This document shows positions 4,414 to 20,057 of a stretch of DNA of 21,029 nucleotides, one piece after another (positions within the stretch are counted from its first letter, which is position 1; each line of letters opens with the position of its first letter). Below the pieces are notes generated by a model. It searched no databases and was not told the DNA's origin. It saw only the letters and a list, made by a program, of their open reading frames with translations. The stretch lies in IMG/VR virus record IMGVR_UViG_3300034375_002930, positions 1 through 21,029 of that record; one strand, written 5' to 3'. The translations under genes and the position numbers were made by a program. Source of the DNA: a virus.

Positions 4414-4653
4414 ATGAACGATAAAGATAAAAGCTCTGTTGAAAAGCGTAGCTTCGGCGAGAAATTTAAACGCAAAGTATTGGGATTGGGTAGACCGTTG
4501 ACTATAAAAGAAAGAATGGAGGTAGAGCGACTCAGAGCAGAATTGAAATTAGACAAGATGCCTGAAAAATACGTAATGTCCGAGGAAACATTTAAAGAAA
4601 GACAAGCGGCAAGACGTAAAATTCAAACAATTGATAGATATTTAAATAAATAA
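4414..4653 (+). CDS. Small basic helical protein, 79 aa
   Basis: First gene of a run of small basic genes. It is rich in Lys, Arg and Glu and probably entirely helical, for example KERMEVERLRAELKLDKMPE and RQAARRKIQTIDRYLNK. No Cys or membrane segment. It has no ribosome binding site; the ATG is preceded by TAATAATT. I do not recognise the family. It could bind nucleic acid or other virion proteins. Confidence 0.6.
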   Translation: MNDKDKSSVEKRSFGEKFKRKVLGLGRPLTIKERMEVERLRAELKLDKMPEKYVMSEETFKERQAARRKIQTIDRYLNK

Positions 4654-4655
4654 TT

Positions 4656-4718
4656 ATGTACGGAAAAAAACCAAAAGTTAAAAGACCTGTTAAAAAAACA
4701 ACTAAAAAGAAATACTAG
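4656..4718 (+). CDS. 20-aa lysine-rich micropeptide
   Basis: An ATG 2 nt after the previous stop opens a 20-codon frame encoding MYGKKPKVKRPVKKTTKKKY. Eleven of the 20 residues are Lys or Arg. It ends 2 nt before the next ATG, so spacing is exactly that of a real gene in this compact operon. The peptide resembles tiny Lys-rich peptides I have seen in marine phage genomes near virion genes. Alone it would be weak evidence, but the neighbouring small genes are also strongly basic. It might condense DNA or be a vestigial tail of such a gene. Confidence 0.45.
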   Translation: MYGKKPKVKRPVKKTTKKKY

Positions 4719-14900: not shown

Positions 14901-16669
14901 GCTACGAACCCGGCAACCTTGACGATTATTTCCCTCGTAAGATTCTGGATCTCAAAAAGGTAAAGGAATACTTTGGTGACACTGTCAAAAAGCCCTTTAG
15001 TAAATTTATTACTGAACTGAACTTCGTTACTAATGCCCGTCAACTTGTTGTCGCAGCCAGAAAGGGCAGCGGAAAAGAACCGTTTAGCGCGGCCGAGCTA
15101 GCGGTTGAGGTTGAAAAGAAATTAAGGGCGATGAGTCTATCCCTTGAAAAGCCAGAGATGGCTTTGGATTTTGATACCGTCAAAAAACTTTTACCCCTTG
15201 ACCAAGGAGTGATTCTTAAACTGGGGGACAAGAAGACTCTAGAGATTGAGTCCATGTTGTTTGATCAATTCATGCGCCGAGGTCTTTATACTAATTACAG
15301 TAAAGGTCTTAGTAACTTAAAGAGGAGAAGCATTGACATCATACCTCCTGAATTGATGGATGCCTATGCCTCACCTGGTGAAGCGTTTGAGTCCTATGTC
15401 TATGGTGCTACTCAGGCAATAGAAACCAGTAGGCTCATAGGCCGTAGGTTCATTCTTGATGGCGGGGGTGACAAAGCCGAAAGAGCAAGTGAACTTGCAC
15501 GAGAACTCCGCGAACTAGAGAACAGCGGAGCCATTACCCCAGAGGACACTGAGACTGCTTATGATGTTTTCCGCGTCATCCTTACTCCGCAAGGAAAGGA
15601 ATCAAAGTTCTTCTCAGGACTCAGAGCGGCTAGTTACTTTACTTTGCTAGTGGAGTTCACCTCAACGCTATCGCAAGTATTTGATATGCCATTCATCATG
15701 GCTCGAGCAGGTATTGATAATACCTTCAAGGCATTGATCTCCCAAAAACTTGGTGTTGATTTACTTGGCATTGATTCAAAGCGTGTATCCGAGGAGTTCC
15801 GTGATCCGCTGTTCATGGACAAGGCTGTTCGCTTGGGTCTAAAGGTTACTGGGTTCACTCGCATGGATCAGTTCATGAAGGAGACCAACATCACGGCTAA
15901 CTTTATGCGCTTTAAAAAGATAGCGCGAGCCGCAGCTAACACTCCCAATGGCCGTAAGTTCCGGGCGGAGATGGAGTTCATGGGATTCAATGATGCGGAA
16001 ATCATAAAGCTAAAGGCTGCACTCCAGAAGGGTGACAGCAATAACGCACTGGTGAGACTCGCACTCTTCTCAAGGTTGTCCGAGACACAACCAACCTCCA
16101 AGGCTCGTATGCCACTCAAGCAAGCTGAGAATCCAGATACTAGATTGTTGTACACAATGAAGTCCTTCTTGGTGAATCAATTAAATCTTACTAATGATTT
16201 ATATATTCAGCAGATGAAAAATGGAACTCGTCAACAGAAAGCTGAAGCATTTCTTAATCTTAGTAAGTTGATAGTATTCATGGCAATGGTTGGTATGCCC
16301 GTGGATATGCTAAAGGATTTAATAGCGGGACGCTTGGGTTACCTCCCGGACTACGCAGTTAATAATAGTCTCCGTATCTTTGGTATCTCTAAATATTCTG
16401 CTTACAAAATAAAACGAGATGGGTTCGGATCGTTTGCTCTTAACTACTTCCAACCAGTTGCCTTGCAACAATTCGTTGACATAACTAAGTCCGTGCAGCA
16501 ACTAGCTGAGGGAACTCCCGTTGAGAGGACCAAGCTAATGACCCTTGCTCCTATGTCCGATGTCCTTAACAGAATCTTTGGGTTCACGAAGCAAAAGGAA
16601 CAAAGAGAATTTAAGCGCAGGCTCAAAGAAGGAGAGCGTCCATTCTTCACTCCTCCTGGAGCCTTATAG
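11927..16669 (+). CDS. Giant internal virion/ejection protein, 1580 aa
   Basis: Order of parts: an N-terminal module with FRDPGTGRAFSFKHDKGLTP (about 5-24); Gly-zipper segments (about 126-172, and AAAAGGAILGGILGGGSG at about 276-293) that could insert in membranes; a charged linker; a small beta domain (about 336-380); a Pro-Glu repeat (about 385-422); a helical region; a metallopeptidase-like segment with EEIIH (668-672) and GAEYARAVVQQLL (E733); another linker; and a long helical C-terminal half with FLVNQLNLTNDLYIQQMKNG and a hydrophobic stretch LSKLIVFMAMVGMPVDMLKD. The length and position are like T7 gp16, which is ejected to form the DNA-conducting channel. The expected HExxH has Glu in place of the first His, so catalysis may be lost. 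It ends the late block. Confidence 0.6.
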   Translation: MPTSTFRDPGTGRAFSFKHDKGLTPDQLQALANDKRFEGLKREGNLVTRNIAIGVDTIQQNVFGSALEGVGKTFDLKTLEELGASVIEEQESQMEDRRRFAPRSEGFVPYVTEMAAQSAPISAVGLAGGYAGFKGGAAIGTVLGGPPGTVIGGTVGGFLGAAGAMLPFFYGGNRERQKEAIERGYRTEVDEGAALLTAIPQASLDSILNLFVVSKVGRAFVPAAIQKGGGIFTRVSKGTATGVLTETPTELGQQVLERYQAGLPMDTPEAIEEYKAAAAGGAILGGILGGGSGAISRSADVEPDSEEDPDKTEEEQERDDQERIDELDEEIGGGEKKIFKVEYTDPDTNEKIVTEVEATSFEEARGLVAESTGANPNTIALAPETTPEPEPAPEPEPEEEPAPEEEPAPEPEEEPIPEPSEGVEDEPDFEPEIRQQVKDALKLEGARNFLRVDPVNRNPVPLGPLENSIREGVPIGEVATEQEVNEKFSDEQLLQALEAANDGGAFRLSSLTGARNIIMPKGVAFDSLPMAERQKIDEEAFKLRKRQKKLQKESFNLQNRLRAKIKEEGYVQTDLDKELEAIAPRGEIIETRDQLKAIVDSFIPIAQKLGFDIDTTYKKSKKGSSARWNPGKNRIQIDVTALFDRVTKGLDERPTGTGGNYVRSVMREEIIHGAMDKVLVKKGIMSDQWYIDLGASLTEAQRKALRENYNVEAKSSYGKTGKKSDIDFGYGAEYARAVVQQLLYGNDTQSFTQPGSALERVKALIKSTQAYITKALKTLAPKNEEAAAIIAETADLLLKADPNAKPTNQKTVALSKFLLRQKQANKASGVSTSGVDPAIESAPNLESAAPTPVSAETVAESDKPPSERKGKEEITTVDRYLKTISSLLRSMHPRLALLVDKYYNDIDSKVLGYMTKTKPFFEKINKIKNKKDRKRLTQLIYYSRSLERDPEQGELRIKERDLLLRKYGMYNDFHLRVRVILNKVRTELVNAGYEPGNLDDYFPRKILDLKKVKEYFGDTVKKPFSKFITELNFVTNARQLVVAARKGSGKEPFSAAELAVEVEKKLRAMSLSLEKPEMALDFDTVKKLLPLDQGVILKLGDKKTLEIESMLFDQFMRRGLYTNYSKGLSNLKRRSIDIIPPELMDAYASPGEAFESYVYGATQAIETSRLIGRRFILDGGGDKAERASELARELRELENSGAITPEDTETAYDVFRVILTPQGKESKFFSGLRAASYFTLLVEFTSTLSQVFDMPFIMARAGIDNTFKALISQKLGVDLLGIDSKRVSEEFRDPLFMDKAVRLGLKVTGFTRMDQFMKETNITANFMRFKKIARAAANTPNGRKFRAEMEFMGFNDAEIIKLKAALQKGDSNNALVRLALFSRLSETQPTSKARMPLKQAENPDTRLLYTMKSFLVNQLNLTNDLYIQQMKNGTRQQKAEAFLNLSKLIVFMAMVGMPVDMLKDLIAGRLGYLPDYAVNNSLRIFGISKYSAYKIKRDGFGSFALNYFQPVALQQFVDITKSVQQLAEGTPVERTKLMTLAPMSDVLNRIFGFTKQKEQREFKRRLKEGERPFFTPPGAL
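13085..13190 (+). repeat. Pro-Glu tandem repeat inside the giant virion protein gene
   Basis: Codons for Pro, Glu and Ala repeat as PEPEPAPEPEPEEEPAPEEE and further PAPEPEEEPIPEP (about residues 387-421). At DNA level the units are variants of CCAGAGCCAGAA and CCAGAAGAAGAG. Such Pro/Glu stretches form stiff extended linkers. They are also prone to length change by slippage. Confidence 0.85.
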
Positions 16670-16670
16670 T

Positions 16671-16725
16671 AAAAAGGGCTGCTCCGTGGACTTCTCATAT
16701 CGGAAGTTTTACTGCGGAACAGCCC
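16671..16725 (-). terminator. Rho-independent terminator for leftward transcription
   Basis: Read on the minus strand, an 11-bp stem with one mismatch (16725-16715 with 16686-16676) holds a 28-nt loop with a further 5-bp inner stem (16707-16703 with 16694-16690). The stem is followed by five T (16675-16671). It sits immediately after the stop of the rightward giant gene, where the two gene blocks converge, and would stop leftward transcripts from the replication block or from a nearby minus-strand promoter. Confidence 0.75.
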
Positions 16726-16840
16726 CCAAGGATTGAACAAAAGCGCGGTCCATGAAAACCGCACTGCGCCTGGGATTACTCCTTCGGCTTACCTTGTATT
16801 ACTATATGAACCAACTAACACACGAACCATTTGTGTGGTA
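16671..16840 (-). ncRNA. Candidate small RNA between converging gene blocks
   Basis: No convincing coding gene fills 16670-16874. On the minus strand a promoter-like sequence (16878-16846) is followed by about 165 nt that end in a hairpin with a T-run (16725-16671). The predicted RNA could fold into a hairpin around GCGGT/ACCGC (minus 16762-16758 with 16749-16745) and the terminator. An alternative pairing of AGCC-AAGG (16789-16781) with CCTT-GGCT (16731-16721) would compete with the terminator arm, as attenuators do. A 13-codon leaderless peptide (ATG at minus 16830) is also possible. It is not a tRNA. A stable small RNA is the simplest reading, but it is inferred from sequence alone. Confidence 0.4.
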
Positions 16841-16845
16841 GAATA

Positions 16846-16878
16846 ATTATAACATAGGTGTCCTATGTTTTCTGTCAA
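16846..16878 (-). promoter_or_regulatory. Leftward promoter candidate
   Basis: On the minus strand a perfect TTGACA (16878-16873) is followed by a perfect TATAAT (16851-16846) preceded by TGT, i.e. an extended -10. The spacing between the hexamers is 21 nt, too long for both to be used together. With TATGTT (16856-16851) as -10 the spacing is 16. Either an extended -10 promoter or the 16-nt spaced pair may work. It overlaps the end of the HNH gene and would drive the region to its left. Confidence 0.5.
16851..16869. promoter_or_regulatory. Perfect 8-bp inverted repeat inside the leftward promoter (operator candidate)
   Basis: AACATAGG, three bases, CCTATGTT. The inverted repeat is perfect and lies between the TTGACA and TATAAT of the minus-strand promoter candidate. 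That is a typical location for a repressor operator. Alternatively it is a hairpin terminator after the HNH gene, but no clean T-run follows on the minus strand. Confidence 0.5.
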
Positions 16879-17126
16879 GAGGAATGCTCGAGCCTGTGAC
16901 AATTTGCACATAGAAGTTCGCACTTCTCTAGTTCCTCAATTAATTGCTGACGGGTTCCCATTCTGCCGAAGTCCCTGATGGCTCTCACCTTCTCATACCC
17001 TGGCAAGTGATGGCAGTCAAACTGCACCGCCTTGCCCTTGAACCCGCACTCACCGCAGACATAGCCACCGAAAAAATCCTCAATGATTTTATGGTAACGT
17101 GCTGTCCGCTTCTGGTGGGGCTTCAT
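16875..17126 (-). CDS. HNH endonuclease-like small protein
   Basis: The 83-residue product has the layout of a zinc-ribbon HNH nuclease: C24-x2-C27 (CGECG), FDCHHLPGYEK (His39, His40) in the catalytic ββα region, and LEKCELLCANCHRLEH near the end (C73-x2-C76, Asn75, His77, His81). It would cut DNA with a metal ion. Its ATG lies 1 nt after the helicase stop, so it is co-translated with the helicase. Free-standing HNH genes in phages are often homing endonucleases, but HNH proteins also serve in packaging or in repair; no choice is possible here. The gene end overlaps the leftward promoter candidate. Confidence 0.8.
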   Translation of the reverse strand: MKPHQKRTARYHKIIEDFFGGYVCGECGFKGKAVQFDCHHLPGYEKVRAIRDFGRMGTRQQLIEELEKCELLCANCHRLEHSS

Positions 17127-18414: not shown

Positions 18415-18649
18415 GGTTTTTTAGTTTTATGTTTTGTTGGTTCCAATTGTCAAATTGAGGTTCCCACTGATCCTCACCCTGCATTACCCATTCTTCTAGG
18501 TGAGCAAGGTCCTCGGAGTAAAGTGGTTTATCGGAATAGATGGAAGTGAATCCATCGAACAGTCCACCCGCATCGGTCACGAACTTTACGATAACCGTGC
18601 AGGATTCAAACTTCTCATTGTCCATGTTAAGCATATATATGTATTTCAT
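18368..18649 (-). CDS. Hypothetical protein, 93 aa, coupled to methyltransferase
   Basis: This ORF begins in an ATGA overlap with the methyltransferase stop (ATG 18649-18647, TGA 18648-18646) and its end overlaps the helicase start by 47 nt. Its first half looks like a small beta/alpha domain (KYIYMLNMDNEKFESCTVIV), and the end is hydrophilic (NWNQQNIKLKNHERIRREP). An AAAGG lies 5-9 nt upstream of the ATG. It fills the only gap between methyltransferase and helicase. I do not recognise a family; it may be an accessory protein of the methyltransferase. Confidence 0.6.
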   Translation of the reverse strand: MKYIYMLNMDNEKFESCTVIVKFVTDAGGLFDGFTSIYSDKPLYSEDLAHLEEWVMQGEDQWEPQFDNWNQQNIKLKNHERIRREPTGDNPQG

Positions 18650-20055
18650 ATTAACCTTTGGATTAATGTGATGAATGCCTTGGCTGCGGTAGCAGGAACT
18701 ACTCCGTTTCCCAAGAGCCTAAGTCTGTCCACCCTGCTGGAAGACCCATTAGATGCTCGACCCAGTTTGGATTGAGCTTGCCTGTTGCTTTCCCGCAATG
18801 ACCCGCTATGTCCTCCTCCAGATTGGCTTTCTTCCGATTGGCTAGATGCTCTCGATTCTTCTCCGTTATCTCTGGATGAACCTTGTTTGCTCTTGGTGTC
18901 GGCCACGACTCTTGGTTCTTCCCATTCGTATTGAGGTTCGCTTGGTCTTGCAGGCCAACGTGTGCCACCCGCTGACCAAGTGTCTGCTTGGATGGGTTCG
19001 CCCTGCTCGGAGGAACTGTGGCGTTGGTGTCCTTCCAGTCCCTCGTGGTTGCTGTTGGCCAGTTCTTCACTTCTTGACATAGTGGTGGCTTCTGCCCCCC
19101 TGATGGATTCTTCTTTCTGGGCTTCTGAATGTTTGCTGTGTCCATCACCGTTGGGGTTGACCAGTTCTTCACCTGTTCGGTTAGGCAACCCTCCACATAC
19201 TTCCGTCCTATGCTCTCCCGGTAAGCCTTCCGCTTTTCCATTCCCTCTGGAGTTCTCTCTATGTCCATCGTTGTTGGAGTTTGCCAGTTCTTCACCTGAC
19301 CCCCCAGATAGAGAGCCTTCGGATTCTCTTTCGTCCCCGCGTAGTCGCTCCCCTTCGCATCGTTGGCTATCGGGGTTGCCCAGTTCTCCTCGTGAGTCTC
19401 CACTGCATCCCGCAGTTTTGCTCCGAATGTTTGATTGCTCCTGTGCCTCTTGCTCTTGAAGCCCTGGCCCGTCATCTCCGTCTCGATGCGTCCACCCTCC
19501 GCGTCCGATGTCCTCGCTGTTGGCCATCCCAAGGATGAAGACTCGCTTTCTCTGATGAGGCGCGCCGACTTCTTCCGCTGAGAATACTCCTGCCGTTGCT
19601 CGATAACCCAATCCTTCCAATGTTCTGAGGACATATTGGAGAACTGGCTCTCCGTCGGCTGTCTTGCAACTGAGGATTCCTTGTACGTTTTCGAGGAAAA
19701 CAATTCTAGGTTGGCACTCTCTGATTCCGTCTGCGATGTAGGGGAAGAGGTGTCTGGGGTCTTCAGTAGCTTGACGCTTTCCAGCAGCTGAGAATGGCTG
19801 ACACGGGAATCCTCCAGAGAGGATGTCCACGCATCCACGAAACTTTCTGTAAGGGAATTGCTTAACGTCCGTGAAGACAGGTGCTGCATCCAGCTTTCCC
19901 TCTTCCATCTTTGCAACCAAGTTCGCGATAGGGAATCCTTCCCTCTCCACGTAAGCGATTTCTCGCAGGTTTGGCAGAACGCTTCTGAGTCCAAGCCCAA
20001 TGCCTTCGTATCCTGAACATAGGCTGAGGTGTGTAATTTTTTTGTTAGTATCCAC
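18646..20055 (-). CDS. DNA (cytosine-5) methyltransferase
   Basis: The 469-residue product has the C5-methyltransferase motifs in order: I LSLCSGYEGIGLGL (10-23, SAM binding), IV GGFPCQPFSAAGK (81-93, catalytic Cys85), VI ENVQG (122-126), VIII QRKRVFILG (168-176) and X RLRLLGNGVVP (444-454). It transfers a methyl group from SAM to cytosine C5, typically protecting phage DNA from restriction. Between motifs VIII and X, where target recognition should lie (about 177-440), the sequence is hydrophilic and repetitive with ELANSN-type units and looks disordered. This is the region that also encodes a second protein in another frame. The frame starts at a GTG (20055) two bases inside an ATG start of that other frame; it may also be reached by a -1 shift at 20043-20037. 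The upstream gap has a terminator but only weak promoter features. Confidence 0.9.
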   Translation of the reverse strand: MDTNKKITHLSLCSGYEGIGLGLRSVLPNLREIAYVEREGFPIANLVAKMEEGKLDAAPVFTDVKQFPYRKFRGCVDILSGGFPCQPFSAAGKRQATEDPRHLFPYIADGIRECQPRIVFLENVQGILSCKTADGEPVLQYVLRTLEGLGYRATAGVFSAEEVGAPHQRKRVFILGMANSEDIGRGGWTHRDGDDGPGLQEQEAQEQSNIRSKTAGCSGDSRGELGNPDSQRCEGERLRGDERESEGSLSGGSGEELANSNNDGHRENSRGNGKAEGLPGEHRTEVCGGLPNRTGEELVNPNGDGHSKHSEAQKEESIRGAEATTMSRSEELANSNHEGLEGHQRHSSSEQGEPIQADTWSAGGTRWPARPSEPQYEWEEPRVVADTKSKQGSSRDNGEESRASSQSEESQSGGGHSGSLRESNRQAQSKLGRASNGSSSRVDRLRLLGNGVVPATAAKAFITLIQRLI

Positions 20056-20057
20056 AT
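18699..20057 (-). CDS. Alternative-frame WxTP-repeat protein overlapping the methyltransferase, 452 aa
   Basis: A second frame on the same strand is open for 453 codons and covers almost the entire methyltransferase. It starts at an ATG at 20057. Its product has a Trp-, Ser- and Cys-containing N-terminal part (residues 25-60 and 130-160; SEHWKDWVIEQRQEYSQRKK), then six similar units centred on WPTA (178), WATP (226), WQTP (258), WSTP (299), WPTA (333) and WPTP (385). It ends GKLNPNWVEHLMGLPAGWTD (426-445). From memory, similar proteins with WPTP units and a '..LNP.WVE.LMG.P.GWT' end are found in phages, often mislabelled as methyltransferases. That and the absence of stops over 1.35 kb support real dual coding. 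Function unknown; it may modulate the methyltransferase. Confidence 0.7.
   Translation of the reverse strand: MWILTKKLHTSAYVQDTKALGLDSEAFCQTCEKSLTWRGKDSLSRTWLQRWKRESWMQHLSSRTLSNSLTESFVDAWTSSLEDSRVSHSQLLESVKLLKTPDTSSPTSQTESESANLELFSSKTYKESSVARQPTESQFSNMSSEHWKDWVIEQRQEYSQRKKSARLIRESESSSLGWPTARTSDAEGGRIETEMTGQGFKSKRHRSNQTFGAKLRDAVETHEENWATPIANDAKGSDYAGTKENPKALYLGGQVKNWQTPTTMDIERTPEGMEKRKAYRESIGRKYVEGCLTEQVKNWSTPTVMDTANIQKPRKKNPSGGQKPPLCQEVKNWPTATTRDWKDTNATVPPSRANPSKQTLGQRVAHVGLQDQANLNTNGKNQESWPTPRANKVHPEITEKNREHLANRKKANLEEDIAGHCGKATGKLNPNWVEHLMGLPAGWTDLGSWETE
18894..19526 (-). repeat. In-phase dual-coding repeats in the methyltransferase locus
   Basis: The unit GAAGAACTGG and flanks recurs. Copies of the W codon are at 19526, 19382, 19286, 19163, 19061 and 18905 (minus strand). 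The three spacings among the four central copies are 96, 123 and 102 nt, all multiples of three, so both overlapping frames keep phase. In the methyltransferase frame they read GELGNPD, GEELANSN, GEELVNPN and SEELANSN; in the other NWATP, NWQTP, NWSTP and NWPTA. Confidence 0.8.
20037..20043 (-). other. A_AAA_AAA slippery heptamer, possible -1 frameshift site
   Basis: On the minus strand there is a run of seven A. In the frame of the ATG at 20057 the codons read ACA AAA AAA TTA, so the heptamer is in the exact X_XXY_YYZ phase for -1 slippage. A -1 shift leads into the methyltransferase frame just before the motif I region (ITHLSLCSG). No obvious downstream pseudoknot or stem is visible by eye. 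The same run could also cause phase variation by length change. Confidence 0.45.

Follow-up and report, generated by a model that had tools for sequence, protein, structure and literature searches.

A candidate non-coding RNA gene with a covarying three-way junction at the convergence of replication and structural gene blocks in uncultivated marine phages

The window, the 21,029-nucleotide stretch of viral DNA analyzed here, contains a gap (positions 16670-16874) between a minus-strand replication block (HNH, DnaB helicase, C5 methyltransferase, SSB, and Erf) and a plus-strand structural block. The gap is flanked on one side by the HNH gene (minus strand, 16875-17126) and on the other by a gene encoding a 1580-amino-acid protein (plus strand, ending at 16669). 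The coordinates at which the initial annotation had placed a possible small RNA, 16671-16878 on the minus strand, are right. The 3' end of the predicted RNA abuts the stop codon of the facing 1580-amino-acid gene. The following features were assigned:

16846-16878, minus strand: promoter (sequence scan and conservation)
16878-16873, minus strand: -35 box TTGACA, overlapping the HNH stop codon
16868-16852, minus strand: dyad ACATAGG-ACA-CCTATGT within the 21-bp promoter spacer
16851-16846, minus strand: TATAAT of the extended -10 box TGT-TATAAT, 21 bp from TTGACA
16815-16841, minus strand: 5' hairpin H1, stem CACAC/GUGUG (16837-16833 with 16823-16819; folds)
16805-16819, minus strand: nearly invariant segment GUUAGUUGGUUCAUA, predicted to be unpaired, the putative seed (folds and conservation)
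16800-16804, minus strand: AU-rich linker of variable length (indels in relatives)
16726-16799, minus strand: three-way-junction core (covariance model R1 and covariation)
16796-16792 with 16731-16727, minus strand: core helix P1, CAAGG/CCUUG
Between P1 and P2, minus strand: core joint J1/2, UAA
16788-16768, minus strand: core helix P2, with a GUAA tetraloop at 16779-16776
16765-16742, minus strand: core helix P3
Between P3 and P1, minus strand: core joint J3/1, UUUUGUUCAAU
16671-16726, minus strand: intrinsic terminator hairpin, then UUUUU at 16675-16671 (fold and conservation)

A promoter-like sequence had been proposed on the minus strand, and the promoter scan recovered it as a sigma-70-like site starting at 16878. 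We assigned the -10 box to TATAAT rather than to the TATGTT implied by standard spacing because TATAAT is conserved in relatives; with this relocation, the proposed promoter stands. The spacing of 21 to 22 bp between TTGACA and the -10 box, with TGn ahead of it, was kept even where the spacer dyad was altered or lost. TATAAT was present in 21 of 39 distinct upstream regions, versus 1.95 in shuffled sequences. In most TATAAT-bearing members, the first helix began 4 to 9 nt past this box, at about the expected first nucleotide, and the helix placed there differed by clade (P1, the H1 of the window, or an unrelated hairpin). The predicted RNA start in the window is 16839 (±2). The dyad is perfect and fills the promoter spacer (16852-16868). 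Because one clade has it altered and another lacks it, the dyad may act as a clade-specific operator; a second copy, as envisaged for a shared operator, was not found in the window. In a minority of relatives, no promoter was recognizable and the element overlapped the 3' end of the last early gene; L198, L218, and L245 have no TATAAT-type box before the element. In these three loci, and in L163 and L196, the last early gene apparently enters the RNA and stops at the UAA of the GUAA tetraloop. Read from the sequences, at least two unrelated upstream genes run into the RNA core in this way.

At the far end, the good terminator noted previously proved to be a GC-rich hairpin (GGGGCUG..CAGCCCUUUUU) followed by five U residues ending at 16671, with the U-run on the minus strand only. 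The terminator arms were conserved across relatives, and the length and sequence of the loop were free to vary. The fold energy of the strand was -63.8 kcal/mol, versus -46.9 (SD 3.8) in shuffled sequences (z = -4.5; 0/200 shuffles equally good). Rather than the two hairpins originally described, the predicted RNA has five helices: the 5' hairpin, P1, P2, P3, and the terminator hairpin.

A helicase search returned 51 IMG/VR loci, corresponding to 33 distinct relatives picked irrespective of the RNA, and the RNA was present in all 33. Close relatives showed hardly any change in TTGACA, TATAAT, the segment GGUUCGUGUGUUAGUUGGUUCA, or the core. They did differ in the AU linker and the terminator loop, and several of them also in the gene past the terminator. 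The H1 stem was invariant in 34 of 34 sequences of A1, as was GUUAGUUGGUUC, which was also retained in the diverged loci L102 and L103. Mean identity to the window was 66% at HNH third codon positions and 75% at DnaB third positions, versus 95% in the seed and 89% in the core, rough figures from a set that includes RNA-selected loci and probably a few misaligned ones.

To assess covariation, we first aligned 28 dereplicated cores by sequence. In this alignment, 89.8% of cells were paired and double changes occurred at 12 of 19 pairs; the 85 double-change cells compare with 29.7 in shuffles and at most 24 with slid partners. Across 75 matches to the covariance model, there were 226 double-change cells versus 70.8 in shuffles and at most 41 with slid partners, in an alignment that leans towards the model to which it was fitted. 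The junction thus covaries strongly. The GNRA tetraloop was kept in all model matches (GUAA; GCAA in L020) and the UAA joint in nearly all, and the frequent G-U pairs of P3 fix the RNA strand. Model R1, comprising P1, the UAA joint, the GNRA-capped P2, P3, and a U-rich joint, matched the window at full length with 50.2 bits (E = 1e-12) as the sole match, the window being one of its 28 training sequences. Across all clades, the unpaired junction nucleotides were the most conserved part of the molecule; loops and 5' segments varied. We rejected a coding reading of the region: indels that break the frame occur in the linker and in the loops, and several members begin 4 to 9 nt past TATAAT with no start codon. 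A tRNA or tmRNA reading was likewise set aside, none being called.

Taken together, positions 16671-16878 of the minus strand very probably constitute a non-coding RNA gene, with a predicted, independently transcribed product of about 165-170 nt. The original observation holds, and it is larger in extent than was first supposed: by its sequence and predicted structure, the RNA is a member of a structured family, defined here, in marine phages with genomes of ~35-40 kb. Used as a pattern, the core motif was found in at least 119 stretches, and related RNAs lie at the same spot in well over 100 uncultivated phage contigs. The RNA was located at the 3' end of the endoVII-Erf-SSB-DnaB block, with the structural block opposite. 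In 80 of 82 newly fetched motif loci, the RNA lay where the replication block ends, with a structural gene opposite wherever the contig was long enough; L168 and L180, located elsewhere, were rejected as chance pattern matches. The family spans divergent uncultivated marine phages at this one place, once per genome (16 of 17 long records). Erf and the RNA persist across its two main lineages, whose helicases are only about 29% identical. Six long contigs yielded no phage integrase, and the 5' hairpin pattern was absent from 84,980 species genomes.

Sampling by Erf gave a broader view of distribution. The RNA was detected in 27 of 77 viral loci sampled in this way; where the convergence point lay inside the contig, it was present in 26 and missing in at least 8. 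Some RNA-less relatives retain one hairpin or only the terminator at the locus. Because some relatives have lost or reduced the RNA, it is dispensable. Reduced versions at the same locus (L341, 8966-9219; L342, 4287-4540; L362, 4642-4976) consist of TATAAT, then only a P3-like or only a P1-like hairpin, then a terminator. The RNA was present in one of the 80 cellular loci that carried an Erf relative, a Lewinellaceae MAG contig (Erf 74% identical) that may be misbinned. Where the window has its HNH gene, just ahead of the RNA, most loci from other clades carry a short ORF of coiled-coil-like sequence (..RIQTQIEMIRNESR..RKELQDEKRxLKELL). L362 also carries, at about 4610-4690, a tRNA-like or tmRNA-like stretch (GGGGGTGCAGGGATTTCGAC...CCACCTCCACCA) just before the last early gene, which ARAGORN does not call.

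Among named phages, Phage C75C1 alone gave a structural-gene match that was convincing (42% identity across 79% of the 798-amino-acid protein). Its layout is the same, with an RNA at the convergence point that carries the motif GGUAAGC..GAGUAAUC..GC and a P1 of UUUAGG/CCUAAA versus CAAGG/CCUUG in the window. A BLAST search with the RNA of another relative independently matched the C75C1 convergence point (E = 1e-3); by DNA similarity, the window's own RNA gave only chance matches to named phages.

Rfam 15 gave no match at the gathering score for the window and ten relatives, and a permissive search gave none up to E = 5 in the RNA region; a snoRNA match elsewhere in L203 was dismissed as chance. 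No description of the RNA was found in a literature search that covered few subscription journals. By sequence comparison, then, the RNA represents a new family of structured phage RNAs that covaries strongly and has no Rfam entry. The packaging RNA of the phi29 family, also phage encoded and comparable in size, shares with this RNA a three-way junction and a dedicated promoter. In contrast, the present RNA matches no Rfam family, the packaging RNA included, and sits at the convergence of early and late blocks; we found no link between it and packaging. Lambda oop and P22 sar are short antisense phage RNAs that likewise have their own promoter and terminator; they are antisense to an adjoining gene, whereas the putative targets of the present RNA lie elsewhere. 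To our knowledge, most known phage small RNAs come from the phages and prophages of a small number of model hosts. Trans-acting examples from phages and prophages of Escherichia coli include anti-sRNAs (PMC4104026) and svsR (PMC12803456). As described, these resemble the present RNA in being small, free-standing, and phage or prophage encoded, and differ from it in belonging to E. coli phages and prophages and in the covarying three-way junction and putative own-genome targets found here.

We compared the 5' segment of the RNA with gene leaders, taken as positions -50 to 0, scoring duplexes of -11 kcal/mol or better as strong and using shuffled segments as the control. In the window clade, complementarity of the segment UUAGUUGGUUCAUA extended to many leaders of early genes and far exceeded that of shuffled segments. 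The seed GUUAGUUGGUUCAUA formed strong predicted duplexes with 4/6, 11/21, 7/18, 5/22, and 8/19 early leaders in five clade genomes, against a shuffled-segment expectation of 0.2 to 1.1; for late leaders in the same five genomes, the difference from shuffles was not significant. None of 1500 shuffled seeds did as well in G004, and the most enriched early-leader word of that genome was AACCAACT, the seed complement (5 of 6 genomic copies in early leaders). Early leaders of G007 matched a different seed (p = 0.02): their top word, CTAACCAA (5 of 7 copies in leaders), is the complement of the linker UUGGUUAG in the G007 RNA, located elsewhere in the molecule than the window-clade seed. Early and late leaders matched the seed alike in G008, and the match was unsupported in G009, G011, G013, and C75C1, so that it is strong in the window clade and weak or absent in most other clades. 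The leader motif showed no clear difference between relatives with and without the RNA (23/275 versus 6/132). Two targets in the window, the Erf and helicase leaders, lie inside the coding end of the preceding gene and may be kept owing to that coding. Given the negative clades, this coding overlap, and a motif that is not clearly lost along with the RNA, support for pairing is confined to the window clade. Shine-Dalgarno sequences are largely missing from early genes (present in 0/6 in the window), and an A/C-rich translation element could therefore explain the leader motif. Several early genes of the window, G001-G004, and G007 share AACCAACUAA-like leaders. The P3 loop UUUUCAUGG, the complement of CCAUGAAAA, was rejected as an anti-start-codon element after no recurrent target was found.

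Gene anatomy, structure, conservation, synteny, and complementarity are features of the sequences themselves. The excess of early-leader duplexes and the enrichment of AACCAACT and CTAACCAA favor pairing with early mRNAs, and our best reading, held tentatively and at somewhat less than an even chance, is that of a trans-acting phage small RNA in which a conserved scaffold presents a segment that pairs with these messages. Host RNA polymerase would produce the RNA from the extended -10 promoter and stop at the intrinsic terminator, and the three-way junction and terminator would form the conserved scaffold. In the window clade, the exposed segment UUAGUUGGUUCAUA would pair with GAACCAACUAA-like sequences that lie 3 to 35 nt ahead of the start codon in several early genes. 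Such pairing, as we infer it to occur in the cell once the RNA is transcribed, would most likely repress or time early-gene translation as the RNA accumulates; for the direction of regulation, repression over activation is a guess from position. A more doubtful extension is that the whole widespread family combines a constant junction scaffold with lineage-specific seeds that match each lineage's own early-leader motif and lie in the 5' segment (window clade) or in the linker past P1 (G007), forming an RNA-based early-to-late switch. For control of the lytic program by RNA in marine phages, it offers a specific candidate that can be put to the test, and model R1 is ready to run on metatranscriptomes.

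Unlikely, though of real weight, is a trans-acting structural RNA that binds a host or phage protein as decoy, inhibitor, or scaffold, with the junction, UAA joint, and GUAA tetraloop as its active parts and the seed match secondary. The conservation of unpaired junction nucleotides above all other parts in all clades, while loops and 5' segments change, agrees with protein binding, as do the many members that begin directly at P1 with no 5' segment; the near-invariant unpaired 5' segment of the window clade does not, since it lies outside the junction and matches early leaders. Rather improbable is a module, placed where the early operon ends, that stops and protects early transcripts and shields the convergent blocks from each other, the promoter having only an accessory role. 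Clades in which the element begins inside the last early gene and no promoter is recognizable (L198, L218, L245) and relatives that keep only the terminator would fit such a module, but more than half of distinct members have a promoter positioned so that the RNA would begin with its first helix, which argues against it, and a plain terminator has no need of a covarying junction. The attenuated transcript that the initial annotation offered beside a free-standing small RNA, a cis-acting switch between terminator and antiterminator, is very improbable despite the structured, leader-like RNA and its 3' terminator: no sense gene lies downstream, the terminator loop is unconstrained, and the competing pairing said to disrupt the terminator arm finds no support, as folds lacking the terminator helix cost 11 to 23 kcal/mol, alternative partners differ between relatives, and no conserved, mutually exclusive fold appeared among the relatives compared. 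The free-standing half of that proposal is strongly supported by conservation, covariation, promoter spacing, and synteny.

Elsewhere in the replication block, at 18646-20057 on the minus strand, two long ORFs that are read in different frames share 1.35 kb. One encodes the 469-amino-acid C5 methyltransferase (GTG start), and the other, with an ATG start two bases upstream, encodes 452 amino acids; the two are possibly an overprinted gene pair. The N terminus of the 452-amino-acid ORF, MWILPKQLHTSAY, is also found in ORFs of the relatives G004 and G007.
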